From the IMG/VR virus record IMGVR_UViG_3300042544_000915, positions 1 to 34,878 of that record: a stretch of 34,878 nucleotides of DNA; one strand, given 5' to 3'. How positions within the stretch are numbered: position 1 is the first letter of the stretch; each line of letters opens with the position of its first letter. Shown here piece by piece: positions 9,921-22,037 of the stretch. Source of the DNA: a virus. The translations under genes and the position numbers were made by a program. Below the pieces are notes generated by a model. That model saw nothing but the letters and a program-made list of their open reading frames with translations. It was not told where the DNA came from and did not search any database.

Positions 9921-11507
9921 AAACCTTGGCATCGCTTCATTAGGGTCATCAACTGAATCATTTTGTTTATTAACTACTTTATTTTTAATATGATAAGGAT
10001 TTTTAAATAAAAAAGGAAGTCCAGTTTTGCTGCTCTGTGGATAATTTTGATTTGGGAATCCTTTATACTTTTTGTTTTTTAAAATTACCACTTTCATTTC
10101 ATCCTTTATAACTTTTCTAATATAGCAAGCATCAAATTTATGATTTAATGAAAACCATTGCATTTTAACATCTTTAGCAGTTGCCTCAATAAATTCAATT
10201 CCATCATTATTCATAAAGAAATCATCTAAATTCATTTCGATTTCTTTTCTCAATGTTGATTTACTTTCCTCCATAACAACTTGCAATGATTCGGTTAAGA
10301 TTTCATCCTTTGTAAATACCATTCGTGATTTGCTAAAATCTATTGCAGGAAGTTGTATAAGATATTTTAAAAACTTTGGTATCTCATTAAACAAATCGGT
10401 TTCGATGTTAGTGTTTTTTGCGCCTTTGATAAGTTTAATTTTTCGCACCCAAAATCGAATCTCCTCCTCATCTATTTTCATAAAATCACTTTCTTTGTTG
10501 GTGCAAAAAATAACCTTACCAAAAAAAGGTACTGAATAATGGCTAACAAACTTTTGCGAAACAGACATTGTTTTGGCGGTTGCTATTGATTTTAACTTTT
10601 CAATTGCGTGTTGTTTATCGATGGTCGTTTCATCAATCATAATGATGTTTTTAGTCGCGTACGCATCATTAAAGTTACTTGTAAGGTCACTTGGATTAAT
10701 TAAGGTAGTGTTTTCTCCAAACAACATTTGAATCCAATTTAAGAAAGTTGTTTTACCCGTTTCTCGTTCCGTTGAAACAAGTGCTAATACTGGCAATATT
10801 TGGCGCGGATTTTCGTAAAGGATTTTCATGTAGTTTAGGCCGAGCTGCCATTGGTCACCAAATATGTGATTAATCAATCCCAAGGTAACAGGTATATCAT
10901 TTGTGTTGACCTCATCAATAACGAATTTATGCGAAAACTTTGCGTAAAGGTTATAACAGTTGTTAAGCACTGGAGTATATTCGACATTGTCGGGATAGAT
11001 AGTGAAGTCATCAAACTTGTAAATCATTCCGAGTAATTGTTTGCCATGGTCTTGCTTTATTTCATCTTTTTTCCAAGGTTTAAGAAGTGTGTTTTCAGAT
11101 TTGTATCTGTCTTTTTTGGCTATAACTTTAAAGTAATCAGTTCCAACACGAATATAAGGTATATCTGATTTCATTATTTCAAAATTAACATAAGACATTG
11201 CAGCAAATGAATCGCCTTGGAATTTAACCGCGGCTAAAACCATAAATTTAGAAACTTTGGCGCCAACACCAAGTCGGTAACTATTTTTTTTCATTACATC
11301 AATAGTGTTTAACTTATTGAGAATAAAAGTAGGTTTGTTAAGTTCCTGCGGATCTAAACTATCGGGATTAAGTAGGCATACTTCCGTTTCAGATTTTACG
11401 TTGCATTGTTTGATGCCCTCGAAAATTGAAATAAATGAACCATAGAAGTTAAAATAATCCACCGCGTTAAGTAGCGGGTTTGATTCAGGTTTTTTAAATT
11501 TGTCCAT
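9912..11507 (-). CDS. SF3-like replicative helicase (phage primase-helicase C-terminal type, 531 aa)
   Basis: An ATP-dependent helicase that probably unwinds the origin and fork. Walker A is STERETGKTTF (about residues 245-255), Walker B IIMIDE (288-293), followed by a conserved Asn/Lys region (VIFCTNKESDF), as in DUF5906/D5-like phage helicases. The first 240 residues lack a primase motif, and the primase is encoded separately at 11834-12715. I use the ATG at 11507 rather than the TTG two codons earlier. The start overlaps the preceding 61-aa gene, and the pair follows leader RNA B. Confidence 0.8.
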   Translation of the reverse strand: MDKFKKPESNPLLNAVDYFNFYGSFISIFEGIKQCNVKSETEVCLLNPDSLDPQELNKPTFILNKLNTIDVMKKNSYRLGVGAKVSKFMVLAAVKFQGDSFAAMSYVNFEIMKSDIPYIRVGTDYFKVIAKKDRYKSENTLLKPWKKDEIKQDHGKQLLGMIYKFDDFTIYPDNVEYTPVLNNCYNLYAKFSHKFVIDEVNTNDIPVTLGLINHIFGDQWQLGLNYMKILYENPRQILPVLALVSTERETGKTTFLNWIQMLFGENTTLINPSDLTSNFNDAYATKNIIMIDETTIDKQHAIEKLKSIATAKTMSVSQKFVSHYSVPFFGKVIFCTNKESDFMKIDEEEIRFWVRKIKLIKGAKNTNIETDLFNEIPKFLKYLIQLPAIDFSKSRMVFTKDEILTESLQVVMEESKSTLRKEIEMNLDDFFMNNDGIEFIEATAKDVKMQWFSLNHKFDACYIRKVIKDEMKVVILKNKKYKGFPNQNYPQSSKTGLPFLFKNPYHIKNKVVNKQNDSVDDPNEAMPRFAY

Positions 11508-11679
11508 TGTCAATTTGTTTTATCATTTCTTCTGCAAACATAATAGCTTCAAAACATATACTTCCAATATGATGTTTATCAATATAACCAGAACTTTGTT
11601 TACTTTTTGCAATTAAACTTTGCATTGCTATTACTGCAATGTACTCTAATCTTTCTTGTTTTGTTTTTTGGTTTTTCAT
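11494..11679 (-). CDS. Small helical protein behind leader B (61 aa)
   Basis: A short Lys/Gln-rich, probably all-helical protein with no recognised motif. Its ATG lies 12 bases beyond the U-run of the terminator in leader B, and its 3' end overlaps the helicase gene by 14 bases, so any control by the leader acts on both. It may be a helicase accessory factor, but only context supports this. Confidence 0.65.
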   Translation of the reverse strand: MKNQKTKQERLEYIAVIAMQSLIAKSKQSSGYIDKHHIGSICFEAIMFAEEMIKQIDNGQI

Positions 11680-11691
11680 AATTTTAAAAAT

Positions 11692-11810
11692 AAAAAAGTC
11701 CTAATAGTTAAGTTTGCTTACGAAGCAAGTAAGGGATTCACTCCTTACACTTAACTATTAGGACTCCTAATGTTTTAATGTGAATCTATGTTACTTCGGT
11801 TCGTGACTCC
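11692..11810 (-). ncRNA. Leader RNA B: pseudoknot-terminator attenuator before the helicase operon
   Basis: The predicted transcript of about 118 nt begins near 11810. A 16-bp perfect stem (11765-11750 with 11712-11697) is followed by six U (11697-11692), a strong intrinsic terminator. Inside this stem sit two hairpins: GTAAGG/CCTTAC (11748-11743 with 11734-11729), whose loop shows GTGAATC (11741-11735), and TTGCTT/AAGCAA (11728-11723 with 11719-11714). The loop is complementary to GATTCAC nearer the 5' end (11786-11780). The same plan occurs in leaders A and C. The downstream ATG follows the U-run by 12 bases. Confidence 0.75.
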
Positions 11811-11816
11811 GATGTT

Positions 11817-11849
11817 GCAAATGTACTTTATAATTATCTATTTTGCAAA
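11817..11849 (-). promoter_or_regulatory. Promoter of leader B
   Basis: TTTG (11849-11846), a 20-base spacer and TACATTTGC (11825-11817) on the minus strand fit the Bacteroidota housekeeping consensus exactly. It overlaps the last codons of the primase gene, so the helicase unit has its own promoter. Confidence 0.7.
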
Positions 11850-12715
11850 TAAGTAGGAAAATTTAAACCCTTATCCACCATTTGTTTTGCGGTAGCTTTG
11901 TAAACACTTGGCTTTTTTGATAGGTAACTTTGCGAATCAATTAAGTTATTGATAAGTGAAATGGCATCATTATAATCAATATAATTTGCGCCAACAAACC
12001 CTCCGAGCAAATAACTGGTAGCTCTTAAAATAATATGCCCAGTATCGGTTATGGTATTAATTCGCTTTGCAATAATCTTTTCAATAACCGAAGTTTTATC
12101 ATCAACAATATACTGTTTTACTGCGGGTCTAACAATTTCAATATGTTTTGTTGACCACGTTTGCGCATCGTTTCTGTGTAGAATGTCGGCATCGTAACTG
12201 ATAAACATCGGTAGTATGCAGTTCTTTGGCGCGGTGTCAAATCCATTGTAGCAGTTAAGGTGTCGCTCAATTCCTGCATAGTATTGTTTAAATTCATCTA
12301 CCGAAATGCAAATCGGAATCTTAACTAAAGCCCTAACACCATGCCTCGAAGCCGATAGCCACGCGGTTATGATGTATTTATATTCGTTAAATAAATATTC
12401 TTTAAATTCAACTGCCACATCACTTGCTAAATGGTCAAAATCCAAAACAAGTAAGCCAGTCCAATGTTGAATGTTGGAATATTTACGCGGCCCGTTAACA
12501 TACACACATGGAGTGAATGAGTATAATTTTGACTTCAATGCTTGCTTTTTGGCCATGTCTTTATTTTCTTCTGCAATCCTTATCTCCTCAAATACATTGC
12601 GGATATCTTTTTTAGGTGTTCTAATCGCGTTAATTAGATATTCAAGCGTAACACTACCTAATGGAGTGCTACGTTTGATGTCGGCTTCGTAATAATTAAA
12701 TGTTATTGGTTGCAT
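11834..12715 (-). CDS. BT4734/VirE-N-like primase (293 aa)
   Basis: The sequence has the features of the VirE N-terminal/BT4734-like domain, an archaeo-eukaryotic primase fold common in Bacteroidota mobile elements: GLLVLDFDHL with the metal-binding DFD (92-94) and LSASRHGVRALVKIP with the catalytic SRHG (about 123-126). It would make primers for replication. In many relatives this domain is fused to a helicase; here the helicase is the next gene but one. The N-terminus overlaps the nuclease gene by 13 bases. The last 70 residues are helical. Confidence 0.8.
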   Translation of the reverse strand: MQPITFNYYEADIKRSTPLGSVTLEYLINAIRTPKKDIRNVFEEIRIAEENKDMAKKQALKSKLYSFTPCVYVNGPRKYSNIQHWTGLLVLDFDHLASDVAVEFKEYLFNEYKYIITAWLSASRHGVRALVKIPICISVDEFKQYYAGIERHLNCYNGFDTAPKNCILPMFISYDADILHRNDAQTWSTKHIEIVRPAVKQYIVDDKTSVIEKIIAKRINTITDTGHIILRATSYLLGGFVGANYIDYNDAISLINNLIDSQSYLSKKPSVYKATAKQMVDKGLNFPTYLQNR

Positions 12716-13260
12716 AGTTTATCCATCATAAACTCATAATTGGCTATGTGAACATTTGTGTAATCTTTACCGTTTGGATGTATCTTATGCTCAAATACTG
12801 GTTTATTGTTAATACTAAACTGATAGCCTAATGGTTTCTTTCGCACTTCACCAATGTTGAACACACCAAGAAAACCGTTAAAAGAATGGTGATCATGTAG
12901 CTCCTCATGTCTATCGATGTGCAATTCTACTCCATCAATAATTGTTGATTGCTCATTTAAAATAAAATAGCTATAAGATAAAGGTGGGCAAATTAAAACA
13001 ATAGCTTTAACAAATTCGCCTGGTTTATATTCCCATTCTGCGGTTGTGTATCTTTCGGCTTGTTTAATGTACTTGCCTATTTCCTCGCCTCTTTTTTTGT
13101 CGGGTATTTTACATTCAATTGCAAAGTGATATTTGCCATCAATAGTTAAAAGCAAATCAATTCTGTTTTTTTTACACTTGCTTACTACTTCTCTTTGAAC
13201 TTCAAAATACTTTTTAAATTTTAATTCAAGTTTGTTTACAAATTCTTTTTCTGTTTTCAT
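12703..13260 (-). CDS. PD-(D/E)XK nuclease-like protein (185 aa)
   Basis: The motif RIDLLLTIDGKYHFAIECKIP carries the D (35), E (49) and K (51) of a PD-(D/E)XK core, with Q67 (IKQAERY) after it, as in many phage endonucleases. The C-terminal 100 residues are specific and have no recognised motif. It sits between the 49-aa gene (one base apart) and the primase gene. It may process recombination intermediates; whether it is specific for ends or branches cannot be said. Confidence 0.7.
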   Translation of the reverse strand: MKTEKEFVNKLELKFKKYFEVQREVVSKCKKNRIDLLLTIDGKYHFAIECKIPDKKRGEEIGKYIKQAERYTTAEWEYKPGEFVKAIVLICPPLSYSYFILNEQSTIIDGVELHIDRHEELHDHHSFNGFLGVFNIGEVRKKPLGYQFSINNKPVFEHKIHPNGKDYTNVHIANYEFMMDKLCNQ

Positions 13261-13261
13261 G

Positions 13262-13411
13262 TTATTTTTTTTTAGGGTTTAGTTTATTGTACTCGATTTG
13301 ATTGTAATTAAAGCCATCCACTACCATTGCTTTTTGGATAGCGTGATAAATTGTTTCGGCCCATGTTGGAAGGATTTTCCCGCTTGGGGATTTTACTAAA
13401 AATATTTTCAT
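13262..13411 (-). CDS. Small protein behind leader A (49 aa)
   Basis: An ATG at 13411-13409 opens a 49-codon frame starting MKIFLVKSPSGKILPTWAE and ending in three Lys; its TAA is one base before the next ATG. The start lies 13 bases after the U-run of leader A, the same spacing as for the genes behind leaders B and C, and the spacing to the nuclease gene is that of an operon. No family is recognised. Confidence 0.6.
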   Translation of the reverse strand: MKIFLVKSPSGKILPTWAETIYHAIQKAMVVDGFNYNQIEYNKLNPKKK

Positions 13412-13424
13412 ACTTATAAGAATT

Positions 13425-13516
13425 AAAAAAGCCCGCTAAACTTTGCATAGGATTCCACTTCTATACTCGGTTAAACGGGCCAATACTGTTATGTTTCTAT
13501 AATGTGGAATCGAAAC
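13425..13516 (-). ncRNA. Leader RNA A: pseudoknot-terminator attenuator before the nuclease/primase operon
   Basis: The predicted transcript starts near 13516. GATTCCAC (13511-13504) near its 5' end is complementary over eight bases to GTGGAATC (13458-13451), which lies in the loop of a hairpin GTATAG/CTATGC (13466-13461 with 13450-13445, one G-U). This hairpin is enclosed by GCCCGTTTAAC/GTTTAGCGGGC (13480-13470 with 13441-13431, one mismatch and one wobble), followed by six U (13430-13425). So a terminator carries a loop that the 5' end can bind. The next ATG is 13 bases on. Confidence 0.75.
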
Positions 13517-13522
13517 AACAAT

Positions 13523-13555
13523 GCAAACTTAATGAATCTTACCCAAAGTCGCAAG
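13523..13555 (-). promoter_or_regulatory. Promoter of leader A
   Basis: CTTG (13555-13552), 20 bases, then TAAGTTTGC (13531-13523) on the minus strand match the Bacteroidota promoter form. The -7 element includes the stop codon of the upstream exonuclease gene. Confidence 0.6.
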
Positions 13556-14152
13556 CATTTTTTTATCGTATTCCTCCAACCATTCGCGACATTGAATGAC
13601 GCGCTGAATAATTAATTGCTCAATAGTAACATCGCGCTGCACCTGATAGGCTACCCATCTTTCGTTATCAGGCAAGTCATCATAAACAACCTCGCCATCA
13701 TAGTTCGCCTCCTCTGGTGTATTCATTAGGCCATGAAAAACTATAAATGTTGGTCGCTCATAAAGTGCCATGTAACCTCTTCCTTGCCATTCGTAGTCGC
13801 TATTTATTCCCTCAATAGCTTGTTGCTGCAATGTTTTGCGTGACCATGCTGCCTTAACATCGACTATTAAGTGATTCGTGATAACATCGCACGTTCCAAC
13901 CATCCATTCGTTGTGAACAGTTACTTCATTCTTTTCGGCCATCCCAAGTCCGATTTGCTCGGCCATAAAATCAATCAGGTCAATTTCAACTAAGTTACCT
14001 TTCATAATGTACTTTGAATGTATCTGCTCTCGGTCATTGGCATACCACTCCATTAAGAATGTTTTGCAGGTTGCTGACAATTCGCCTTTAGTTTTTGCGT
14101 TGCTCATAATCTTACCGATTTGAGAGCAATGTATTCTGAATATCTTATCCAT
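13529..14152 (-). CDS. YqaJ/lambda-exonuclease-type recombination nuclease (207 aa)
   Basis: A PD-(D/E)XK exonuclease of the YqaJ/RedAlpha kind that would resect double-stranded ends for single-strand annealing. Visible are GTCDVI (D89), IVDVKAAW (D98, K100) and YEWQGRGYMALY (Q123), the core motifs in the right order and spacing. The length matches the family. It overlaps the 155-aa gene by eight bases and follows an SSB-like gene, forming a recombination/replication cluster. No RecT-like annealing protein is evident unless the 155-aa product takes that role. Confidence 0.82.
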   Translation of the reverse strand: MDKIFRIHCSQIGKIMSNAKTKGELSATCKTFLMEWYANDREQIHSKYIMKGNLVEIDLIDFMAEQIGLGMAEKNEVTVHNEWMVGTCDVITNHLIVDVKAAWSRKTLQQQAIEGINSDYEWQGRGYMALYERPTFIVFHGLMNTPEEANYDGEVVYDDLPDNERWVAYQVQRDVTIEQLIIQRVIQCREWLEEYDKKMLATLGKIH

Positions 14153-14612
14153 TGGTCAATTGAGCCTCCACCTCGTTAGTAACATTATATTTTTTCTTTA
14201 TTGCTTCAATCGTAACCGATCCTGCTGCAATAGCCGCTTTGGCTTTTTCGATTGCTTCACCGCTTAATGTCGGTTTAGTAACTGGCTTGGTCGATACCCT
14301 AACCGCATCGTGCATTTCACCGAATGCTTTAACTTTTTCGGTTGTAAGCACTATTTGTTTGTTTGCCCAATCCTCGATAAATGGGCTACCTAATAGCTTC
14401 GATATGCGCTTTAAGTTGGTAGCATTAGCCACCATCGGTTTGCATTCAGCAAAATGCACTATGCAGCATTCGGATTCGCCACCTTTACCATCGTGTACTT
14501 TTTCCTTGTCAACTTTGGTTATTGTAACTGTCTTATCGGCATCGGTTAAATCCCACCCACCGATATAATTTGGGTTGCGTAATTTTTTGAAATGTGTTTT
14601 TTGTGTGTTCAT
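14145..14612 (-). CDS. Conserved phage protein of the recombination region (155 aa)
   Basis: The N-terminal 105 residues (HFKKLRNPNYIGGWDL; VHFAECKPMVANATN; GSPFIEDWANKQIVL) resemble a family often found beside phage recombinases and predicted to be beta-rich, perhaps an OB-like fold. The last 40 residues are helical (AIEKAKAAIAAGSVTIEAI). It lies between the DUF3127-like gene and the exonuclease gene, so a role in single-strand binding or annealing is likely but not shown. Confidence 0.65.
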   Translation of the reverse strand: MNTQKTHFKKLRNPNYIGGWDLTDADKTVTITKVDKEKVHDGKGGESECCIVHFAECKPMVANATNLKRISKLLGSPFIEDWANKQIVLTTEKVKAFGEMHDAVRVSTKPVTKPTLSGEAIEKAKAAIAAGSVTIEAIKKKYNVTNEVEAQLTNG

Positions 14613-14631
14613 TGTTAGTTATGTATTAGGG

Positions 14632-14973
14632 TTAAAATAAATCATCGTTTGAAATTGGCTTTGCATAACTTGCTTGTGGGTCTTCGGTTTGCGTAAACGG
14701 ATTCGCATCCACTTTCCAGCACACTATTGTATTAAATACCTTAACCTCACCTTGTGGGCTTGTCCATTCACGACCTCTGATGTTAATGTGCGCTTCAATG
14801 TCTTGCCCAACTGAAAGCGAATCTGCAAGTGCGCAGGCTTTTTGTTGCAATTCGATTGATACTATTTGCGGATACTGGTCTGCGGTTGTGAGTATTATTT
14901 CTCTCTTTGAGAATTTACCATCACTTACTGTTTGCGTTGCGCCTATGCGCTTGATTGTTCCTTTGATTGTCAT
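14632..14973 (-). CDS. DUF3127-like OB-fold single-strand DNA-binding protein (113 aa)
   Basis: The sequence follows the DUF3127 pattern: GTIKRIGATQTVSDGKFSKR, IVSIELQQKACALAD, IEAHINIRGREWTSPQGE, then a Trp in the last strand (VCWKVDANPF). The family is mainly from Bacteroidota and predicted to be OB-fold ssDNA-binding. The acidic tail ending SNDDLF is like the C-terminal tip of SSB that recruits partner enzymes. It probably coats single strands during replication and recombination with the neighbouring nuclease genes. Confidence 0.8.
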   Translation of the reverse strand: MTIKGTIKRIGATQTVSDGKFSKREIILTTADQYPQIVSIELQQKACALADSLSVGQDIEAHINIRGREWTSPQGEVKVFNTIVCWKVDANPFTQTEDPQASYAKPISNDDLF

Positions 14974-14986
14974 TTTGTTTATTGTA

Positions 14987-15307
14987 TTAATTATGATTAC
15001 TATTATTGTGAATTGTGTCTACTTTTGGAACGTGCAAGAATTGTGACAACACTATTGAGAGAAAAGCATTGTTAGGGATGAAGTTTTGACCGCTTAAATC
15101 CATTTCATTAAATCCTGCCGAAATCATAGCATCGCATTTCTTTAGTATGTCTGCTGCATCTTTTTGCTCAAATGATGCTGCTATTGCGCCATCAAACCAA
15201 AAGTAAAATGTTTCTGAATCGCTTTCGTGTTCAATTCTTTGTTTTTGCTCATCGTTGATCCAAGTTGTAACTGTGGTAATTTGTTTTTTAATGTGAATTG
15301 ATTTCAT
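14987..15307 (-). CDS. Hypothetical early protein (106 aa)
   Basis: No family is recognised. The sequence is acidic and mixed, with a possible strand-helix pattern in the middle (FYFWFDGAIAASFEQKDAADILKKC), and ends in Asn/His repeats. It is read just upstream of the SSB-like gene with a 13-base gap and an A/T-rich start region, so it belongs to the early unit. Confidence 0.6.
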   Translation of the reverse strand: MKSIHIKKQITTVTTWINDEQKQRIEHESDSETFYFWFDGAIAASFEQKDAADILKKCDAMISAGFNEMDLSGQNFIPNNAFLSIVLSQFLHVPKVDTIHNNSNHN

Positions 15308-15337
15308 TGTTAGTTTGTTTTTATTGGGTTTGTAATT

Positions 15338-15354
15338 GGGGGTGTTTAGCCCCC
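15338..15354. terminator. G/C hairpin between early genes
   Basis: Five G (15338-15342) and five C (15350-15354) form a short hairpin with a seven-base loop in the gap between two minus-strand genes. A T-rich run follows only on the plus strand, so it is weak as a terminator for the leftward genes; it may instead stabilise or pause the transcript. Confidence 0.35.
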
Positions 15355-15368
15355 TTTGATTTGTTTAT

Positions 15369-15617
15369 TTAAATAGTGCCAGTTATTGCAATCGCATTTT
15401 GATAATTATAATGTGAATGTGTTTTAGTTCCAGTTTTAAAAAATGAAAACATTTTATCATAAAAAGTTATAACACCACATTTATCCCAACATCTTAATGC
15501 TCTTACGGTAAATTTATTGTGTTCAACATTACATACAATACCAGTTTCAATCATTCCGTTTTCTTCAAAAGTTACTGTTTGATTAATTTCTACGTTTTCA
15601 AATTTTCTTGCTTTCAT
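15369..15617 (-). CDS. Hypothetical early protein (82 aa)
   Basis: A small, probably all-beta protein (EINQTVTFEENGMIETGIVCNVEHN) with no recognised family, resembling small phage proteins with an SH3-like barrel only in general character. It has its own promoter-like sequence upstream and a G/C hairpin downstream, so it may be transcribed separately. Confidence 0.6.
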   Translation of the reverse strand: MKARKFENVEINQTVTFEENGMIETGIVCNVEHNKFTVRALRCWDKCGVITFYDKMFSFFKTGTKTHSHYNYQNAIAITGTI

Positions 15618-15657
15618 TTTGTTAGTTTTTAAAATTAGTAATTGTTATTTGTTGGGA

Positions 15658-15687
15658 CAAATGTAGAGTTAAATTCATTACCTCAAA
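15658..15687 (-). promoter_or_regulatory. Probable promoter of the 82-aa early gene
   Basis: TTTG (15687-15684), an 18-base spacer and TACATTTG (15665-15658) on the minus strand resemble the Bacteroidota consensus; the spacer is slightly short. The predicted untranslated leader is about 40 bases. Confidence 0.45.
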
Positions 15688-15713
15688 ATAATATTTTCAA
15701 CTAAAATGTTAAT

Positions 15714-15962
15714 TTATGTTAAATATGCTTTAAGAAAATCATAAATCATAAAATGTTGTGGCTTCCAACGGTCAACTTTACCATTCATTAACCGAGCAAT
15801 ACCTGGCCGAGTGTATCCAAATTGTTTAGCGGCTTCGGTAATAGGATTGCATTTCGCGGGTCTTGATCCATTGTGTTCAACAAGTGCTAACATCTGTTTG
15901 TATTCTTGTTTAAGTTGAGTGTTGCTTGGTTTAATTCGTGGTTGTTCTGCGGTTATATTCAT
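15714..15962 (-). CDS. Possible helix-turn-helix protein (82 aa)
   Basis: The C-terminal half (ITEAAKQFGYTRPGIARLMNGKVDRW) reads like a helix-turn-helix with a short wing, followed by an aromatic helix. Such a protein could regulate early phage genes. It is one base from the DNA methyltransferase gene upstream. The N-terminus is polar and flexible. The DNA-binding assignment is from pattern only. Confidence 0.55.
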   Translation of the reverse strand: MNITAEQPRIKPSNTQLKQEYKQMLALVEHNGSRPAKCNPITEAAKQFGYTRPGIARLMNGKVDRWKPQHFMIYDFLKAYLT

Positions 15963-15963
15963 G

Positions 15964-16983
15964 TTAAAATAGTGTTGTTTGTGATTGAATTAATTGAATT
16001 CTTTTGTTTGACATTTCTACATATTTATTATTAATATCATATCCTATAAAATTTCTATTTTCTTTGGCGCTCATTGCACATTCAGTTCCACTTCCTGCAA
16101 ATGGAATAAATACAAGGTCATTTGGTCGGCTACAAGTTAAAATTAAAGCCCTTGTAAGCGTTTCAGGTTTGCAGGTGTCGTGGTCATATTTACTTGTAAT
16201 GTGGCCTTGTTGTGAAAATTCTAAAACTTCCTCATACTTATTTGGATTGTAAAAAAATCTGCGTAGGTCTTCATAATCCTTGCGTAGGTCTTCATAATCC
16301 TTGCGTAGGTCTTCATAATCCTTGCGTAGGTCTTCATAATCCTTGCGTAGGTATTCATAATTAAACAACTCTTGCAATTTTACATACCAATCTTTTGTCG
16401 GTAAAGCCCATTGGCTTGTTCTTGCAAACCAATGCGAAGCCATTTTGCTTTTTGTTGCTTCATTTATTTTAGCACAATTAAAACCTGCTTTTTCCATTTC
16501 TCCTATCATATAAGAAATAATTGGCTCCATTATTTCAGTATGTTTTACTCCTATTTGATATGAATAATTTAACTCCGCTAAATCCATTCCATCACTTTCG
16601 TTTGAATACATCAGCAACCTTTCGTTATGTGTATTAAAAGTTCTTGCTAAATTAGGGCTATAATATTGGTATTGTATGCTATCCTTTTTTCTCCATACTA
16701 AAGAATTTTCTAAGTTAAAATACTTGTCAAGTATTATTTGACTGTATGCAATCTTTTTTGAGTTTCCCCACCAAAACAAAGTTCCATTATCAGCAAGTAA
16801 CCGTTTGCACTCAATAGCCCATTTTTCAACATCAATAAGGTAATCATTAAACGATTTCCAAACAAAATCAAACTCGCCTTTTACCTCAAAATATGGAGGG
16901 TCTGCAATAATTAACTGCACTGATTTATCAGCAAGTTTATTATTTATCCAGTCATCGTGATATATCTTATTCAATTCCATCAT
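15964..16983 (-). CDS. Orphan DNA adenine/N4-cytosine methyltransferase, beta class (339 aa)
   Basis: Motif IV DPPY (residues 28-31) precedes motif I FAGSGT (295-300), the order of the beta class, which methylates the amino group of adenine or cytosine using SAM. The middle (about 95-245) should hold target recognition. Residues 212-241 are a perfect heptad-like repeat (RKDYEDL, about four copies), encoded by 21-bp DNA repeats, probably a coiled coil. No restriction nuclease gene is adjacent, so it probably protects phage DNA from host restriction. The start is MM; its first codons overlap the preceding gene by four bases. Confidence 0.88.
   Translation of the reverse strand: MMELNKIYHDDWINNKLADKSVQLIIADPPYFEVKGEFDFVWKSFNDYLIDVEKWAIECKRLLADNGTLFWWGNSKKIAYSQIILDKYFNLENSLVWRKKDSIQYQYYSPNLARTFNTHNERLLMYSNESDGMDLAELNYSYQIGVKHTEIMEPIISYMIGEMEKAGFNCAKINEATKSKMASHWFARTSQWALPTKDWYVKLQELFNYEYLRKDYEDLRKDYEDLRKDYEDLRKDYEDLRRFFYNPNKYEEVLEFSQQGHITSKYDHDTCKPETLTRALILTCSRPNDLVFIPFAGSGTECAMSAKENRNFIGYDINNKYVEMSNKRIQLIQSQTTLF
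16261..16365. repeat. 21-bp tandem repeat inside the DNA methyltransferase gene
   Basis: Four identical 21-bp units start at 16261, 16282, 16303 and 16324 (each beginning gcgtaggtcttcataat), with a fifth that diverges after about 17 bases. The unit is seven codons, so gain or loss of copies keeps the frame and changes only the length of the coiled-coil segment. Base-perfect identity implies recent expansion. Confidence 0.9.
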
Positions 16984-17345
16984 ACTTCTGACATTATTAA
17001 TAACTGATTTGTATTCGTTTTTTTAGCTTTTCTCATAGCCATATAAATGTTGTTAGCTATTCGTTGTTTGAAATCAATTGCAGCCTCAACAGTTGCAAAG
17101 TCTTCGCTCCAGTCTTCTGCTAACTTGCTTTTGTTTTTTAATCGTTCTACTATGCCCGAAATTATACTGGTGATTTCGTGTACTTTGATGCCAAAGACCA
17201 TAGCACATTCAACCGATGTAAGACCACTATTGTATTTTAGCCAAATATCCCAATGTTGTTGCGTTATCGTTGCAGGTTTGGGGATGTGAATGTAACTATC
17301 ACAAATGGCCCTGCCTAATTTGCGTTTAGTTTTAATCTTTTGCAT
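16980..17345 (-). CDS. Hypothetical early protein (121 aa)
   Basis: A basic N-terminus (QKIKTKRKLGRA) is followed by helical sequence with a possible helix-turn-helix (GLTSVECAMVFGIKVHEITSII). It may be a small regulator or DNA-binding protein. It is translated just before the methyltransferase (four-base overlap), and its start overlaps the 53-aa gene by 14 bases. No family is recognised. Confidence 0.6.
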   Translation of the reverse strand: MQKIKTKRKLGRAICDSYIHIPKPATITQQHWDIWLKYNSGLTSVECAMVFGIKVHEITSIISGIVERLKNKSKLAEDWSEDFATVEAAIDFKQRIANNIYMAMRKAKKTNTNQLLIMSEV

Positions 17346-17493
17346 TGCGTATGTTATATTGCATTAACACTAATGCTGAATGTATGGCTTCAGCATTGCC
17401 ACCTTTGTACGTAAGTTTCGCGCCTCCTTTAGGAATGTAGGCATCGGGGTTGCTTCGGTAACCGAAGAGTAAGCGTTGGATAAGTTGTTTCAT
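17332..17493 (-). CDS. Small basic protein (53 aa)
   Basis: An ATG at 17493-17491 opens a 53-codon frame starting MKQLIQRLLFGYRSNP and containing IPKGGAKLTYKGG, with a plausible basic helix and a Gly-rich turn. It fills an otherwise empty gap, has an A-rich start region, and its TAA lies in the first codons of the next gene. The family is unknown. Confidence 0.6.
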   Translation of the reverse strand: MKQLIQRLLFGYRSNPDAYIPKGGAKLTYKGGNAEAIHSALVLMQYNIRNAKD

Positions 17494-17497
17494 GTTG

Positions 17498-18121
17498 TTA
17501 GTTGTTTAAGATTATTTTGTTTTGTTTTTTAACTTCTGATTCTGACATTAATATTATTGTCATTATTTCGCAACAGATAATTGCAATTTGTTCATTTGAA
17601 ATACAAGTTTTTTTTAATTGTTTTGACAGTCTTATTAAATTAGCAACAGTTGATTTGTACTTTAAATAAGTTTGTTTTGATAAGCAATAATTATTTAATT
17701 CGTAAACAACAGAATTTACAATATTTGTAAACCTTGCTTCTTGATTATTAATAATAAACTCCAAACACTCTTCAAAAGTATAAGTACAAAATATTCCAAG
17801 TTTTTTGTTTACAGTAAAATAAATATTGTTTATTCTACTTTTTTTAGGGTTATAACCTCCAGCAACAATTTTGGGCAAATGTGGAATTATAATTTTTTCC
17901 AAAATATGTTTTGATTCTATATTGCTTAAATAAGTTGTATCCCTTTTTATCATTTCTGTTTGAATACAACTTCTCAAATATTCAGCACAAAAAACAAGTC
18001 TTAATTCATAGATACTTGTAGGCAATGCAATGTCAAAAAATCTTTTTTTGCAAATCTCACTTGTTATTCCAAATGAATGATTGCAATGGCAATCTCCACA
18101 ATATTTAATTTCGTAACTCAT
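17498..18121 (-). CDS. Hypothetical Cys-rich early protein (207 aa)
   Basis: A YCGDCHC motif at residues 7-13 suggests a metal site at the N-terminus; the rest is helical, Ile/Lys/Asn-rich, with many AT-rich codons. The coding sequence is visibly richer in A and T than its neighbours, which may reflect recent acquisition. It overlaps the previous gene at the start by one base. No family or function is recognised. Confidence 0.55.
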   Translation of the reverse strand: MSYEIKYCGDCHCNHSFGITSEICKKRFFDIALPTSIYELRLVFCAEYLRSCIQTEMIKRDTTYLSNIESKHILEKIIIPHLPKIVAGGYNPKKSRINNIYFTVNKKLGIFCTYTFEECLEFIINNQEARFTNIVNSVVYELNNYCLSKQTYLKYKSTVANLIRLSKQLKKTCISNEQIAIICCEIMTIILMSESEVKKQNKIILNN

Positions 18122-18357
18122 TATGCAAGTGAATCAAATTTTTTACTTTCAATTTCTCTAATTTGTTCCTTTGCATTGTTGCTTTCAATAGCATTTATAA
18201 CAACTGCCCTTTTTAATTCATAGTTTAAAAGGTTGTTACATTGTGCTACAAGTTTAGCTTGTGCAGATGCAGTTGAAGCATCAATTTCGCCTTTGTCTAA
18301 TTTCTCCATTTGGATGCAAAGATGTGCGAATAGTGACTTTGTGTTTACTGGTACCAT
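18121..18357 (-). CDS. Hypothetical first leftward early protein (78 aa)
   Basis: The first gene of the leftward unit, about 40 bases from its promoter. The product is a helical, acidic protein (EKLDKGEIDASTASAQAKLVAQ) with no family found. I take the ATG at 18357 rather than the TTG two codons earlier. As the most promoter-proximal early gene it may act on the host, but nothing in the sequence shows how. Confidence 0.6.
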   Translation of the reverse strand: MVPVNTKSLFAHLCIQMEKLDKGEIDASTASAQAKLVAQCNNLLNYELKRAVVINAIESNNAKEQIREIESKKFDSLA

Positions 18358-18395
18358 GTTCAATTTGTTTTTAGTTAGTATTAATTATTTAGACC

Positions 18396-18428
18396 GCAAA
18401 CCTACTAATAATATTTTTAAAAATAAAA
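18396..18428 (-). promoter_or_regulatory. Leftward early promoter
   Basis: TAGGTTTGC (18404-18396) on the minus strand fits TAnnTTTG; about 20 bases upstream lies only a T-rich -33 region (18428-18425) without a clear TTG. It faces the leftward early genes and is back to back with the rightward promoter. Confidence 0.5.
18413..18424. promoter_or_regulatory. 12-bp perfect palindrome between divergent promoters
   Basis: The palindrome atttttaaaaat lies in the spacer of the leftward promoter and just upstream of the rightward -33 element. This is a natural place for an operator that would control both directions, though AT-rich palindromes are common by chance. Confidence 0.35.
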
Positions 18429-18460
18429 TTGTTTGCTAATTATTTTTATTTTATATTTGC
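18429..18460 (+). promoter_or_regulatory. Rightward promoter
   Basis: TTG (18429-18431), a 20-base spacer and TATATTTGC (18452-18460) match the Bacteroidota consensus well. The predicted start is about 15 bases before the first rightward ATG at 18482. Confidence 0.65.
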
Positions 18461-18481
18461 CAAAATTTAAAAACTAACATT

Positions 18482-18649
18482 ATGGAAACAACATTAACAT
18501 TACATTGGGATTACGAAAATGATGACCGCGAAAACGGAATAAGAGGCGGTTGGGTATTAACTGACATTACTAATGGTAACACACCAGTACACTTAAGCCC
18601 GAAATTAGAACAATTATTAAACGAAGAATTAGATCCCGAAAACTTTTAA
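18482..18649 (+). CDS. Small acidic protein, first rightward gene (55 aa)
   Basis: The first gene after the rightward promoter. The product is acidic (WDYENDDRENGIRGGW; NEELDPENF at the end), with no recognised family. The start is an ATG in an A-rich context and the stop is three bases before the next gene. Small acidic first-operon proteins of phages often inhibit host enzymes or mimic DNA, but this is only an analogy. Confidence 0.65.
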   Translation: METTLTLHWDYENDDRENGIRGGWVLTDITNGNTPVHLSPKLEQLLNEELDPENF

Positions 18650-18652
18650 ACT

Positions 18653-18844
18653 ATGAAAACAAAAGCATCTTTAATCTTATGGGCAGTATCAGCCCTATTT
18701 ATGTCCTTTTGGGCAATCAAATTCGCAATGACTGGAGTATTCTTTGGTAATTCCGAAATGCTAACCTTTACGCTATCCTTTTGCGCCTCATTAACAAGTG
18801 CTGTATGTGGTGCAGGTTTTATGCAACAATGGTTAAAAAAATGA
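18653..18844 (+). CDS. Two-TM membrane protein (63 aa)
   Basis: Two hydrophobic segments (about residues 5-27 and 36-58) separated by a short polar turn (GNSEM), with Lys at both ends. This would suit a small inner-membrane protein of the holin or superinfection-exclusion kind. Its stop overlaps the next start as ATGA. No family is recognised. Confidence 0.65.
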   Translation: MKTKASLILWAVSALFMSFWAIKFAMTGVFFGNSEMLTFTLSFCASLTSAVCGAGFMQQWLKK

Positions 18845-19257
18845 AACTGTTTTACAAACCTACCAAGTTAACCTGCGAATTTATTGTGCCAGACATCGAC
18901 AAGTCCGAAGGAGTGCAAAAGGTCATAGGCTTCAGCAGAGGTTGGCATCACTGGAATAGCATACGTTTAGGCATCCGCAAAGAGGAAAACTATTGCGTTT
19001 TGTATTTTTATGCGTACATTAAAGGGCAAAGAATCATTCAACGTTTAGGCAGATACCAAATCGGTGAGCTTGTGAAGTGCGCTTTAAGTTGGGGTTATTA
19101 CATTGAATGCAAAGCTAACGATGGCTATGCTTTTAGAGTTGCTCCGAAGTGTTCTTTTCCGATTGGTTACCAACTTTATTCCTATGCCGAGAAAGATGGT
19201 GTGGAGGGTGTTGAAGTGCCGATTGAGATACAGATAAATAATTTGAAAATAAAATAA
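18841..19257 (+). CDS. Hypothetical protein (138 aa)
   Basis: A soluble, mixed alpha/beta protein beginning MKLFYKPTKLTCEF, with many aromatic and basic residues (GWHHWNSIRLGIRK). The start at 18841 overlaps the upstream stop as ATGA; a longer reading from 18781 would run over the membrane-protein gene and is not needed. No family is found. It lies in the same rightward operon as the lysis genes. Confidence 0.6.
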   Translation: MKLFYKPTKLTCEFIVPDIDKSEGVQKVIGFSRGWHHWNSIRLGIRKEENYCVLYFYAYIKGQRIIQRLGRYQIGELVKCALSWGYYIECKANDGYAFRVAPKCSFPIGYQLYSYAEKDGVEGVEVPIEIQINNLKIK

Positions 19258-19258
19258 G

Positions 19259-19450
19259 ATGCCCACAAAACAAATAAGCGCAGTTGACTGGTTGGCAAAC
19301 GAAATAGAAATTAATGAAAAGTTGCTAAAGTTAGCCAAAGAAATTGAAAAGCAAAACATTATCAATAGCTACCACGTTGGCTATTCAAGGGCTATAATGC
19401 CGAAACAGTACAATGCGCAGGAGTATTATGAACAAAACTTTAATAAATAG
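19259..19450 (+). CDS. Small helical protein (63 aa)
   Basis: An amphipathic, charged protein (ANEIEINEKLLKLAKEIEKQ) likely to form a helix or coiled coil, ending in a Tyr/Asn-rich tail. The ATG follows the stop of the upstream gene by one base. It is probably translated with the operon. The role is unknown. Confidence 0.55.
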   Translation: MPTKQISAVDWLANEIEINEKLLKLAKEIEKQNIINSYHVGYSRAIMPKQYNAQEYYEQNFNK

Positions 19451-19508
19451 TTGTGCGTGTTATGGCTCGAATGACATACACGAATGCTATTGTAATAAAC
19501 AAAACAAT

Positions 19509-19931
19509 ATGAAACCAAAAGATGAAACCAAGCCCTTTGAGTCGCGCCTGATCGAGGACTTGCATCCAACACTTGCAAACGCTTACAAGAAAGCAGAGGC
19601 GCAGTTTAACGCTATACACAATGATGTTCACGTTATTATTGTATGCACTTATAGAAACAATGCAATGCAGGAGGCTTATTATCGTAAAAGACCGAAAGTA
19701 ACTAATGCCAGATCAGGGCAATCAGCGCATAATTACTACCCATCAAGGGCTTTCGATATTGCCTTTGTTAAAGTTGGCAAACGTGAACTTGACTACTCCG
19801 CAAAACATTTTAAAGAGTTTTGGGAGTTGCTTCAATCAGTAAGTAATAAGTTGACTTGGGGTGGTAACTTTAAGAACTTTTCTGATATGCCGCACTACGA
19901 ATTATCTAACTGGAAAATGACAATCGTATGA
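19509..19931 (+). CDS. M15-type peptidoglycan endopeptidase, endolysin candidate (140 aa)
   Basis: The Zn-peptidase M15 (L-alanyl-D-glutamate/D-Ala-D-Ala type) signature is clear: SGQSAHNYYPSRAFDIAF supplies H74 and D83 and MPHYEL supplies H129. The enzyme would cut peptide cross-links of peptidoglycan to release virions. The whole domain fits after the ATG at 19509, whose context (acaatatgaaacc) is shared with the spanin-like gene. A longer frame opens at 19413 but adds only a Cys-rich stretch overlapping the upstream gene. There is no signal peptide, so it would need the holin. It is part of the rightward operon with holin- and spanin-like genes. Confidence 0.85.
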   Translation: MKPKDETKPFESRLIEDLHPTLANAYKKAEAQFNAIHNDVHVIIVCTYRNNAMQEAYYRKRPKVTNARSGQSAHNYYPSRAFDIAFVKVGKRELDYSAKHFKEFWELLQSVSNKLTWGGNFKNFSDMPHYELSNWKMTIV

Positions 19932-20113
19932 CACGCAACACACGCTACACTAATGGCAAGGAGGTTATCACTTTCAGCAAAATAGATTTCATTGTCATCG
20001 GAGGTCGCAAGATTGACCACGTTTATTTTCGCAGGAAAGATAAAAATGATTTGATAATGCCTTTGGTCGAATGGAATTTAAAAGGTAAATTTGAATGGGA
20101 AATAATTAATTGA
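19928..20113 (+). CDS. Hypothetical protein (61 aa)
   Basis: A small basic protein (MTRNTRYTNGKEVITF; DHVYFRRKDKND), beta-rich in appearance, whose start overlaps the endopeptidase stop as ATGA. No family is found. Translation coupling to the lysis gene is the main support. Confidence 0.6.
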   Translation: MTRNTRYTNGKEVITFSKIDFIVIGGRKIDHVYFRRKDKNDLIMPLVEWNLKGKFEWEIIN

Positions 20114-20117
20114 TATA

Positions 20118-20324
20118 ATGAAAGAAGAATTAAAATCGAATTATTGTTATAGATTTAAAATAACCAGTAAGCAAAACGATTCTACTTTAGGAACTGGATT
20201 TTTTACAGTTAGCAAAAAGATGACAAAAGAAGAACAAATTATTTTTTTACATCAATACAATAATGGTCGTTACTTGGATAAAGAATCATTTATAACTATT
20301 GACATTGTTGAAGCTAACGAATAA
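20118..20324 (+). CDS. Hypothetical protein (68 aa)
   Basis: A small soluble protein (KSNYCYRFKITSKQ; FFTVSKKMTKEEQIIFLHQYNNG), probably alpha/beta, of unknown family. It begins four bases after the preceding stop. It lies directly upstream of a duplicated start region and an inserted-looking segment. Confidence 0.55.
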   Translation: MKEELKSNYCYRFKITSKQNDSTLGTGFFTVSKKMTKEEQIIFLHQYNNGRYLDKESFITIDIVEANE

Positions 20325-20331
20325 ATAAAAC

Positions 20332-20353
20332 AAACTATGAATCTAAAACAGAA
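20332..20353. repeat. 22-bp direct repeat, copy 1
   Basis: This 22-base stretch around an ATG (aaactatgaatct...) is identical to 20654-20675, where it forms the start of the holin-like gene. The 322-base offset brackets a segment with inverted repeats near its ends. Confidence 0.85.
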
Positions 20354-20366
20354 AGCCCGCAATTGA
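20337..20366 (+). pseudogene. Truncated duplicate of the holin gene start
   Basis: Ten codons read MNLKQKARN and stop, starting exactly like the 84-aa holin-like protein (MNLKQKYRS). It appears to be left over from a duplication that inserted 20354-20653. Its TGA overlaps the TTG start of the following 78-aa frame, so it may now serve as a translated leader. Confidence 0.55.
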
Positions 20367-20599
20367 ATATAGGTGCTGTTACCTGCCGTTATTTTATTTA
20401 CGTTTATTACCAAGTTGGGAATATTGGTAGTAGAGATGTAAAAACTATTGATGAACAACCTAAAGATGGATTTGAAACTGAACACGAAGCTGAACAACAC
20501 TTAATAAAATTAATATTGGCTAAGAAAGGGTATCATTTTGATAGAGATTGGTATAAGTTCACAATATTGAAAACTTGGAATAGTCTGTCTGCTGTATAA
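20363..20599 (+). CDS. Hypothetical protein inside an inverted-repeat-flanked segment (78 aa)
   Basis: The frame begins at TTG 20363, overlapping the stop of a ten-codon ORF (TTGA), and has no internal ATG near the front. The product looks real: a beta hairpin-like start (YFIYVYYQVGNIGS) and a helix (HEAEQHLIKLILAKKGYHFD). It lies within an inverted repeat (20378-20392 with 20596-20610) and 22-bp direct repeats. It may be an inserted gene cassette. Function unknown. Confidence 0.5.
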   Translation: MNIGAVTCRYFIYVYYQVGNIGSRDVKTIDEQPKDGFETEHEAEQHLIKLILAKKGYHFDRDWYKFTILKTWNSLSAV

Positions 20600-20610
20600 T
20601 GGCAGGTAAC
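20378..20610. mobile_element. Possible miniature inserted element with terminal inverted repeats
   Basis: gttacctgccgttat (20378-20392) and ataatggcaggtaac (20596-20610) are inverted with 14 of 15 bases matching, bounding 233 bp that is almost entirely one small ORF. Direct 22-bp repeats lie outside. No transposase is present, so it could be a MITE-like passenger or merely a strong mRNA stem; I cannot tell which. Confidence 0.4.
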
Positions 20611-20653
20611 TAACATATATACGCTACTAATATCGCATATCCAACAACATCAA

Positions 20654-20675
20654 AAACTATGAATCTAAAACAGAA
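20654..20675. repeat. 22-bp direct repeat, copy 2
   Basis: This copy holds the start codon and first codons of the holin-like gene and matches 20332-20353 exactly. It is probably the original copy because the reading frame continues. Confidence 0.85.
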
Positions 20676-20913
20676 GTACAGAAGCCCAGACAACAAGCAA
20701 CTGAAAAAGATTGCAGATTACTTAATCTACGTTCTATTGCCTTTCATTCAAACATCGTTAGCACTTGCAGAAACGCAAGGTTTAATCAGTTTACGACAAG
20801 CGTTTTGGGGTGGTTTGGCTGCAACATTCTTGCTGATTAATACTAAATTTTTAACTAAATTCACAACCGAAACACCTACAAGAACTGCGGTTATTGATGG
20901 GGATGGGTGCTAA
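20659..20913 (+). CDS. Holin-like two-TM membrane protein (84 aa)
   Basis: A basic N-terminus (KQKYRSPDNKQLKK) is followed by two hydrophobic segments (about residues 19-41 and 48-68) and a short polar tail, the size and layout of a class II holin. It lies after the endopeptidase and just before the spanin-like gene, which supports a lysis role. Two other small membrane proteins of the genome are also holin candidates, so this is probable, not certain. Confidence 0.65.
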   Translation: MNLKQKYRSPDNKQLKKIADYLIYVLLPFIQTSLALAETQGLISLRQAFWGGLAATFLLINTKFLTKFTTETPTRTAVIDGDGC

Positions 20914-20923
20914 AATAAACAAT

Positions 20924-21490
20924 ATGAAACCACAACACCAACTTATTACATTCGCAGCCCTATGCCTATTATTAATTATCGGCTTAAACCATTGCGCCAA
21001 AGACAAACCGAAACAGATTCCATTTGACTACAAAGCAGAAGCGGAACTGATTAAAAAACAATTCGGCATCGAGCAGGCAATTTTACTGAATCAGTTGGAA
21101 TCAGTTAACCGAAGACTGCAAACTGCTAACAACGCAAAAGATTCGATTAGACAACGTGAAATATCTTTAACCAACACTAATATAGCTTTGCTTAAGAAGT
21201 TGCGTAATACGCTACCAAAAGAGTGTGATACTGTCTTTGTGCTATGCGATGAGATAATCAATGTTAAGGATAGTAGCTATGCTGCCTTATTTACTGCATT
21301 TCAATTATGTGCTGATGGAAGTAGCATTAAGGATTCTTTAATAGTTGCTTACAAAGCGGAGAATGTAACCGATAGCACTCTGTTAGTGATAAGTAAACAA
21401 GAAACAAAGAAACAACGCAAAGGTAAAATAGCTGCGTGGTGTGTTGGTGGTGCTATGTTTTTAGTTTGGCTTGTTGTTGGATTGAAATAA
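20924..21490 (+). CDS. Putative unimolecular spanin-like lysis protein (188 aa)
   Basis: The N-terminus has a hydrophobic signal-like segment (ITFAALCLLLIIGL) ending in a Cys (LNHC, residue 25 or so), the middle is a long charged coiled coil (about 40-150), and the C-terminus is a transmembrane segment (CVGGAMFLVWLVVGL). A lipidated N-terminus plus a C-terminal inner-membrane anchor is the layout of u-spanins that fuse inner and outer membranes in lysis. The lipobox is poor (N-H before Cys), so an Rz-like protein with two TM segments is the alternative. The ATG at 20924 shares the endopeptidase start context; a longer start at 20894 is possible. Confidence 0.6.
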   Translation: MKPQHQLITFAALCLLLIIGLNHCAKDKPKQIPFDYKAEAELIKKQFGIEQAILLNQLESVNRRLQTANNAKDSIRQREISLTNTNIALLKKLRNTLPKECDTVFVLCDEIINVKDSSYAALFTAFQLCADGSSIKDSLIVAYKAENVTDSTLLVISKQETKKQRKGKIAAWCVGGAMFLVWLVVGLK

Positions 21491-21504
21491 ATTAGTATAT
21501 TTGC
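21474..21504 (+). promoter_or_regulatory. Promoter of leader C
   Basis: TTG (21474-21476), a 19-base spacer and TATATTTGC (21496-21504) match the Bacteroidota form. It lies across the end of the spanin-like gene, giving the last rightward gene its own promoter. Confidence 0.65.
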
Positions 21505-21510
21505 CACGTT

Positions 21511-21588
21511 GTGTAGGAGCAACGAAACGAAATTATAACAAAAGCCTTGACTTTAGCGACCTCCTACTCGCTATCGTTAAGGTTTTTT
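21511..21588 (+). ncRNA. Leader RNA C: pseudoknot-terminator attenuator before the last rightward gene
   Basis: GTAGGAG (21513-21519) near the predicted 5' end is complementary to CTCCTAC (21561-21567), the loop of hairpin AGCGA/TCGCT (21555-21559 with 21568-21572). Below it CCTTGAC pairs with GTTAAGG (21545-21551 with 21576-21582, one G-U), followed directly by six T (21583-21588). The plan equals leaders A and B, but the loop and its partner have a different sequence. The ATG at 21601 follows the U-run by 12 bases. Confidence 0.75.
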
Positions 21589-21600
21589 AATTTAAAAGAA

Positions 21601-21954
21601 ATGGAAAAAATAATTTATTCAGAAAATGGTGGATTAGGTATTATTTTAGACAGCAACGAAAACGAAAATGATTTTATTGATACAACAAAATCATTTATTA
21701 TAAATAATCAAACAATGATGCCTAATGATAAGACTACCTTGTTTGGAATGTATGATGCTCCTGCAATTTATGTGGGTGCTTTAAAAGAGGGCAATAATAA
21801 TTGTATGGTATTTTGTTTAGGTTCAAATGATGATTTATTTGAATCTAAAACTTATTACAGTTGTTTTTATTGGATTAATGAAAGGCGAATAGCTAATAAA
21901 TATAAAGAGGGAACTGTAAGAGATTTTATATTTGTTAATGGTGTTTGGAAGTAA
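21601..21954 (+). CDS. Hypothetical protein controlled by leader C (117 aa)
   Basis: An acidic, soluble protein (MEKIIYSENGGLGIILDSNENENDF) with aromatic-rich strands near the C-terminus (FYWINERR). A frame opens upstream at 21547, inside the terminator hairpin, so the ATG at 21601 is the sensible start. AT-rich codons differ slightly from the lysis genes before it. It is the only rightward gene with an attenuator-like leader, so its expression may be tied to the replication genes behind leaders A and B. Function unknown. Confidence 0.65.
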   Translation: MEKIIYSENGGLGIILDSNENENDFIDTTKSFIINNQTMMPNDKTTLFGMYDAPAIYVGALKEGNNNCMVFCLGSNDDLFESKTYYSCFYWINERRIANKYKEGTVRDFIFVNGVWK

Positions 21955-21964
21955 TAATTTTTAC

Positions 21965-21973
21965 TATCTTTGC
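21965..21973 (+). promoter_or_regulatory. Promoter-like -7 element in the convergent gap
   Basis: TATCTTTGC fits TAnnTTTG; a TTTG lies 17 bases upstream, shorter than ideal. If active it would make an RNA of about 55-65 nt ending at the hairpin 22003-22032 with no coding frame. The wording around it (ttgcc.cgtt) resembles the leader C promoter. Confidence 0.35.
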
Positions 21974-22002
21974 CTCGTTCAATGTTAGTTAAGTTATTAG
22001 GT

Positions 22003-22037
22003 CAAAGCCCTTGCAGAAATGTGAGGGCTTTGTTATT
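22003..22037. terminator. Terminator between convergent operons
   Basis: A perfect nine-base stem caaagccct/agggctttg (22003-22011 with 22024-22032) with a 12-base loop is followed on the plus strand by a T-rich stretch. It lies between the ends of the rightward and leftward units, so it likely stops transcription from both sides. Confidence 0.7.

Follow-up and report, generated by a model that had tools for sequence, protein, structure and literature searches.

Leader RNAs with a predicted contact between a 5' hairpin and a terminator loop precede phage genes, often those of replication

In the rep attenuators of pT181 and pIP501 the leader of a replication gene contains a terminator, with RNA structure as the control point, and the part of PMC8383071 that deals with them describes mutually exclusive conformations and a countertranscript. 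In the IncIalpha repZ leader a pseudoknot before a replication initiator is the switch; it controls translation, Inc antisense RNA counteracts it, and the section on it does not mention an intrinsic terminator (PMC8383071). A pseudoknot just before an intrinsic terminator alters read-through in the fluoride riboswitch (crcB), a fluoride-sensing aptamer in which pseudoknot and terminator overlap in sequence, according to the relevant portion of PMC11077080. Phage leader RNAs with internal complementarity are represented by the C4 antisense RNA, entered in Rfam as RF01695 in the passage concerned (PMC2864571). Here we set beside these systems three leader RNAs, A and B (minus strand) and C (plus strand), of the IMG/VR virus record IMGVR_UViG_3300042544_000915, whose whole stretch of 34,878 bases is called the window. 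Among phages, a leader segment of C4 in P1 and P7 complements the region in which the downstream open reading frame (ORF) starts; the lambda pR' 6S leader with its Q gate and HK022 put place a constitutive promoter and a short terminated leader before a gated operon; and in the CI-type termination immunity of P4 a processed leader RNA acts in trans on that same leader. The comparison suggests that A, B and C are of a known general kind, the terminator attenuator, with a predicted contact between 5' hairpin and terminator loop.

All three sites follow one plan: a TAnnTTTG box precedes a 5' segment and an intrinsic terminator with an inner loop complementary to it, and a T-run and an ATG come after (Table 1). 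This arrangement, proposed in the first-pass annotation, was confirmed by direct reading at each site; from the end of the T-run to the ATG there are 13 nt in A and 12 nt in both B and C. The promoter boxes are of a type that we take to be that of Bacteroidota. A scan of the window for a promoter box followed by a terminator returned seven sites, and only at A, B and C did a stem score above 20 coincide with an ATG within 60 nt. Elsewhere in the window, intergenic promoter boxes such as those at 18452 (+) and 15665 (-) have no such leader. At each of the three sites the predicted fold combines a 5' hairpin with a terminator that contains an inner hairpin; the folding z-scores are -3.3 for A, -6.7 for B and -4.7 for C.

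In A and C the contact is a loop–loop kissing interaction, because the 5' segment sits inside the loop of the 5' hairpin; the H-type pseudoknot with a plain 5' strand that had been envisaged is replaced at these two sites, on the evidence of folding and alignment. In B the GATTCAC segment lies 3' of a separate 5' hairpin, P0, and the leader probably forms two contacts, the second by kissing of the P0 loop ACGAA (11804-11800) with TTCGT (11724-11720). Loop shuffling gave the single pairing a P-value of about 0.005 in A (for which L001, a stretch of the window, was scored), 0.035 in C and 0.06 in B, where a rival 8-nt match slightly outscores the main pair (17.5 versus 17). Taken alone, a single pairing is only moderately unlikely; the proof lies in the comparison of A and B orthologues with their compensatory changes.

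Orthologues were collected by a helicase search (48 related loci) and a search with the 117-aa protein downstream of C (four loci), and were compared by alignments and scripted scans. Among 13 distinct A-type orthologues, 402 of 403 cells hold standard pairs, and 15 of 31 pairs show a two-sided change. The kissing helix accounts for four such changes among its eight pairs without any violation, and it occurs in the versions GATTCCAC/GTGGAATC, GGTTCGAC/GTCGAACC and GGTCTCAC/GTGAGACC. The 5' hairpin P1 (helix 1) is paired in 100% of cells, with a two-sided change in one of six pairs. Sliding the partners by one to three columns left 27–49% of cells paired. Shuffling the 3' letters, a control that ignores relatedness, reached the observed percentage paired in 0 of 500 trials and the number of two-sided pairs in three of 500.

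The main contact of B was scored by position in ten sequences and is paired in 66 of 70 cells, compared with 15–30 of 70 in slid controls. All four missing cells belong to L238, which is one base out of register; its own-register pair, CTCTAAC/GTTAGAG, is exact. With each sequence read in its own register, the two sides of the main pair are exactly complementary in all ten (seven bases in nine of them, six in L029), and the segment exists in three versions, GATTCAC in five, GATTGA(C) in four and CTCTAAC in L238. The second contact, ACGAA/TTCGT, is paired in 50 of 50 cells (slid controls, 9–29 of 50) and shows one compensatory change, to ACCAA/TTGGT in L238. The eight near-identical orthologues of C hardly vary and offer little covariation, and the support for C is its architecture together with a GTAGGAG leader that has different stems in L238. 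The claim that pairing is kept by covariation has thus survived a test on homologues for A and B. As the drifting loops keep pairing, we argue that the pairing itself is the function.

Beyond the orthologues, a pattern search of IMG/VR returned 83 stretches, which together with the loci already collected gave 33 distinct A-type leaders after filtering. The pattern made no demand for a gene; the first ATG lies 10–20 nt after the start of the T-run in 33 of 33, and an ORF of at least 38 aa begins there in 32 of 33, the leaders preceding several different small proteins. The filter dropped 45 rows; among those listed, eight distinct ones have a loop pair with a TTTA or TTCG box, two overrun the end of the locus and the remainder are chance-like. 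A strict scan of the collected loci, demanding both promoter and ORF, gave 48 rows with 22 distinct loop pairs, about 20 of them sound: the GATTTAA pair of L080 is apparently spurious and that of Riemerella phage RAP44 belongs to another type. J (L019) and Polaribacter phage P12002L have the pairing without a sound 5' hairpin. Two related leaders in comparable positions carry different pairs, GGTCAGAGC/GCTCTGACC and GTCGAAGC/GCTTCGAC, and the relatives include GTGGAATC/GATTCCAC, in which the loops are exchanged relative to A. In the 46 rows left after omission of RAP44 and the spurious L080 pair, a median of 6 nt separates the promoter box from the start of the detected 5' hairpin, the stem ends 8–25 nt before the ATG, and the median contact energy is -11.4 kcal/mol. 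On these sequences A, B and C are one architecture with many unrelated loop pairs. Of the repeated RNA plan postulated before replication genes, the plan stands and such genes often follow, while the idea of a single sequence family does not hold.

The same leader precedes different genes. Leader C is followed by the 117-aa gene in four phages, one of them that of the window, and by a methylase-like gene (its start Dcm-type by eye) in four others (L065, L070, L079 and L080). The J type (L007:5718, L010:1964, L019:8376 and L099:8585), with a pairing of 11–12 bases and no sound 5' hairpin, precedes two unrelated genes. Thus, the leader moves as a promoter–terminator module, cassettes in which genes are swapped. 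Ribosome-mediated attenuation would call for a conserved leader peptide ORF; as read by eye, a J-type ORF (MKIFKNPII...) of 25 codons enters the terminator in L007 and is shorter in L099.

Applied to 14 named Bacteroidota phages, the strict scan returned five matches, compared with none in five dinucleotide shuffles and none in the reversed sequence; it replaced a loose hairpin scan that had produced many chance rows. RAP44, of a different type, is one of the five. The full architecture is present in Flavobacterium phages 11b and FCL-2 and in Croceibacter phage P2559S, that is, in three of 20 named phages; in P12002L the pairing is present, with an overlap between the promoter box and the 5' hairpin that was detected. 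The genes behind these leaders include, as judged by family matches, replication genes in first or second place in many cases. Gene 1 of FCL-2, P12002L and contig L128 and gene 2 of P2559S match phage replication initiator families, Holliday junction resolvases lie within the FCL-2 and P2559S operons, and gene 2 of 11b matches a primosomal family only weakly (E 0.0014). Replication genes thus lie behind the leader in several phages that are unrelated to one another. In the window, nuclease/primase and helicase operons lie behind leaders A and B. These genes and the 117-aa gene had been named as the controlled ones; they do lie downstream, and the immediate neighbours of A and B are ORFs of 49 and 61 aa.

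These positions bear on the possibility that the element merely stabilizes RNA, the kissing fold sealing the 5' end and the terminator the 3' end of a decay-resistant leader or 5' untranslated region with unregulated termination. The 5' hairpin begins no more than a few nt from where the transcript probably starts (the median of 6 nt past the box is scan-limited), and loops with this task need only to pair. Such an element leaves unexplained why the gene start is so near the T-run in all 33 A-type leaders and why replication genes recur, and we consider it unlikely, if a serious contender.

11b, P2559S and L128 have in common an internal loop, AGTA/GAA, which separates the outer stem from the inner one and resembles the loop E or sarcin–ricin motif. 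It could be a protein site, and a short leader close to the promoter that carries a terminator ahead of replication operons would suit a loading site for an antitermination factor: the promoter would be constitutive, the leader would end early, and a phage or host factor recognizing the kissing fold would let the polymerase through. Binding of a phage or host factor, like a regulon that times replication, was a conjecture of the first-pass annotation. The layout is that of lambda Q and put; a kissing contact between 5' hairpin and terminator loop is not known to be part of those systems, and no factor is known here. A, B and C lack a common conserved sequence core, and no shared factor gene is known, none having been searched for. 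We give this explanation a minor share of our confidence.

The spread of the leaders was followed with the VirE-N protein of the leader A operon, which has relatives in 23 phage records, the majority from Cellulophaga and Flavobacterium phages at about 40–41% identity and three at 22–25%. At settings slightly looser than the strict rule, also used for the chromosomes and a second phage set, the VirE-N relatives gave 32 matches in 705 kb, representing 23 distinct sequences and 12 distinct pairs, compared with none in one shuffle; these loci overlap contigs already used. One shuffle at these settings gave no match in any of the three phage sets tried. No such leader was found in four named relatives (phi18:1, phi17:1, FPSV-S1 and lotta8-1), among which FPSV-S1 has one promoter–terminator–ATG leader without a loop pair. 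Four Bacteroidota host chromosomes gave no match in 720 kb, and two further genomes (67 kb) no strict match. A replication-initiator match was present in 117 of 296 Bacteroidota genomes, and among 30 loci near such matches one, L312, has a kissing-like pair, found by the looser scan only. At L312 (contig G327:C87) the pair TGTGCAGA/TCTGCACG, with one G-U, is followed by a 163-aa ORF adjoining the replication-initiator match; this leader is possibly a prophage member.

At the gathering threshold, Rfam gave no match in the window, in 13 loci or in four stretches of named phages, in line with the view that no described family fits; at low threshold, only weak matches to other families were obtained, which we judged to be chance. 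Neither the C4 model (RF01695) nor those of pseudoknot riboswitches (fluoride, preQ1, ZTP, SAM-II and others) matched. A search of open-access papers, judged by title and the start of the abstract, with subscription papers mostly outside, showed no description of kissing-loop terminator leaders. A pseudoknot with a terminator is a usual layout of a riboswitch; given that a ligand core is conserved across none of the types and that Rfam is silent, a metabolite riboswitch is hardly to be expected.

Control by a countertranscript as in pT181 and pIP501, in which an antisense RNA would displace the contact, seems to us highly improbable. The controlled gene is of the same kind, a replication initiator, and an antisense -7-like box lies inside leader B (window 11709 +). 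However, antisense -7 boxes occur in two of 21 leaders (RAP44 included, B-type leaders not) compared with 2.29 expected from shuffling; antisense promoter boxes opposite the leaders are at chance level. In a further difference from pT181 and pIP501, stem and contact are compatible on paper here.

Action in trans is the remaining alternative. In Riemerella phages RAP44, CRP6 and CRP34 (L291, L374 and L375) about 12 nt from the beginning of the downstream ORF recur in the 5' segment, the terminator loop can pair with segment and ORF start alike, and all three elements change together between phages; the gene that follows is annotated as antirepressor in CRP6 and as KilAC domain in CRP34. By sequence, these leaders look like C4-type antisense control and form a separate class. 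They are also what would speak for a phage small RNA of the C4 or P4-immunity kind with another transcript as its pairing partner. Among 34 leader/gene combinations, a list without B-type leaders, a long match to the downstream start region as in C4 was found in one, the 11-nt copy of RAP44, and the other 33 reach at most 7 nt. The leaders of this list other than RAP44 thus differ from C4 in having no comparable copy of the next start region, and no Rfam match. Complementarity to the start region, as raw match length, extends to 8 nt in L046 and L299. For B, the single candidate target, GATTCACT near 18135, 14 nt before ORF 17498-18121, was ruled out: it is unchanged in L197, whose leader has GATTGAC, and so does not follow that allele. 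Neither a trans target nor antisense control is supported, and a trans-acting RNA appears improbable for the leaders at large.

At the level of sequence features, the leaders show what is general in attenuator leaders, namely a promoter box, a hairpin with a T-run and an ORF start shortly after. From this position and spacing we propose that they are cis-acting transcription attenuators with the kissing contact as the control point, a reading to which we assign an even chance. Since the loops vary freely while pairing, a structural role in cis is favoured over a fixed target or ligand. Host RNA polymerase would start at the TAnnTTTG promoter, placing the 5' end of the transcript at P1 or a few nt from it. 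Once the polymerase is about 60 nt past the beginning of P1, the terminator would have its inner hairpin complete, and the loop of that hairpin would kiss the P1 loop; in B, J and some others, the terminator loop would pair with a bare 5' segment. As the second loop of A is complete about 20 nt before the last stem base, the contact can form first, and in general it can precede synthesis of the final base of the terminator stem by about 20 nt (38 in B). It would then set the share of transcripts that end as a short leader RNA of roughly 75–120 nt as against those that read into the downstream, often replication, genes. Kissing might hinder closure of the stem base adjoining the T-run and thereby cause read-through, and a contact that fails or is displaced would lead to termination. 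We lean slightly towards read-through as the favoured outcome because the 17-pair stem of B would hardly need help to terminate.

Several points weigh against this proposal. Leader start, termination and regulation are deduced from sequence features, any regulator acting on the leaders is putative, as is an input that might change the contact, and the effect of the contact on termination is argued from geometry and folding order. Kissing and terminator stem use different bases and are on paper not mutually exclusive. The strict rule was fixed after the loose scan had shown 11b, FCL-2 and P2559S in full, and none of the six further named phages examined after that (the second set) has the leader. 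Promoter and gene distances in the sets of 48 and 46 rows are limited by the bounds of the scan itself. In the A-type alignment, the measure 'further pair types' was reached in 499 of 500 shuffles, the observed value being the lower one. For the first P2559S gene the depositors annotated a start (33955) that falls within the leader, and a later ATG was taken. Finally, the same leader stands before different genes, as for C with its 117-aa or methylase-like gene, and the link with replication is not universal.

The left-arm genes of the window run leftward and include those for an exonuclease-like protein, a PD-(D/E)XK-like nuclease, a BT4734-like_N (VirE-N) protein and a DUF5906 primase/helicase-like protein. 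A methyltransferase-like protein, identified by eye at 15964-16983 (-), has a tandem DLRKDYE repeat near its middle. At 21965-22040 (+), a box TATCTTTG is followed by a terminator-like hairpin AAAGCCCT..AGGGCTTT with neither a near ORF nor a kissing pair, possibly a small RNA.

Table 1. Positions in the window of leaders A, B and C and of the genes behind them (loops in brackets)
Feature	Position	Strand	Basis or detail
A promoter -7 box TAAGTTTG	13531-13524	-	
A 5' hairpin P1, TGTTTC[GATTCCACATTATA]GAAACA	13492..13517	-	folding, alignment; kissing segment inside loop
A kissing pair GATTCCAC with GTGGAATC	13511-13504 with 13458-13451	-	second partner is the apical terminator loop
A terminator hairpin	13430..13481	-	outer stem P2 13481-13470/13441-13430; inner P3 13466-13461/13450-13445
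A T-run	13425..13430	-	
B promoter -7 box TACATTTG	11825-11818	-	
B 5' hairpin P0, TCGG[AGTCACGAA]CCGA	11796..11812	-	loop ACGAA at 11804-11800
B pair GATTCAC with GTGAATC	11786-11780 with 11741-11735	-	
B terminator	11697..11765	-	outer stem P2; hairpin P3, loop AGTGAATC; hairpin P4, loop TTCGTAA
B T-run	11692..11697	-	
C promoter -7 box TATATTTG	21496-21503	+	
C 5' hairpin P1, CGTTG[TGTAGGAG]CAACG	21507..21524	+	folding; loop holds kissing segment
C pair GTAGGAG with CTCCTAC	21513-21519 with 21561-21567	+	
C terminator	21541..21586	+	outer stem 21541-21551/21576-21586; inner hairpin AGCGA[CCTCCTAC]TCGCT
C T-run	21583..21588	+	
49-aa ORF	13260..13411	-	directly 3' of leader A
PD-(D/E)XK-like nuclease	12703-13260	-	downstream of 49-aa ORF
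BT4734-like_N/VirE-N primase-like protein	11834-12715	-	in leader A operon
61-aa ORF	11494..11679	-	3' of leader B
DUF5906 primase/helicase-like protein	9912-11513	-	next after 61-aa ORF
117-aa ORF	21601..21954	+	3' of leader C; without family match

More tentatively, these leaders may form a class of phage RNA switch that is set by shape and not by sequence. The apical loop of the terminator would be held by the nascent 5'-terminal hairpin, and read-through into the replication module would be decided by the order of folding and the length of the tether instead of by a ligand or antisense RNA, with swappable loop pairs allowing several independent gates per genome. If confirmed, the architecture of a 5' hairpin kissing a terminator loop would be one that models of sequence or of nested pairs miss, because the letters change while the shape stays. 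Bacteroidota phages would then share an RNA gate before their DNA replication genes, and the timing of replication genes in these phages would become testable with short templates, such as those from Croceibacter phage P2559S or Flavobacterium phage 11b, and compensatory mutants.

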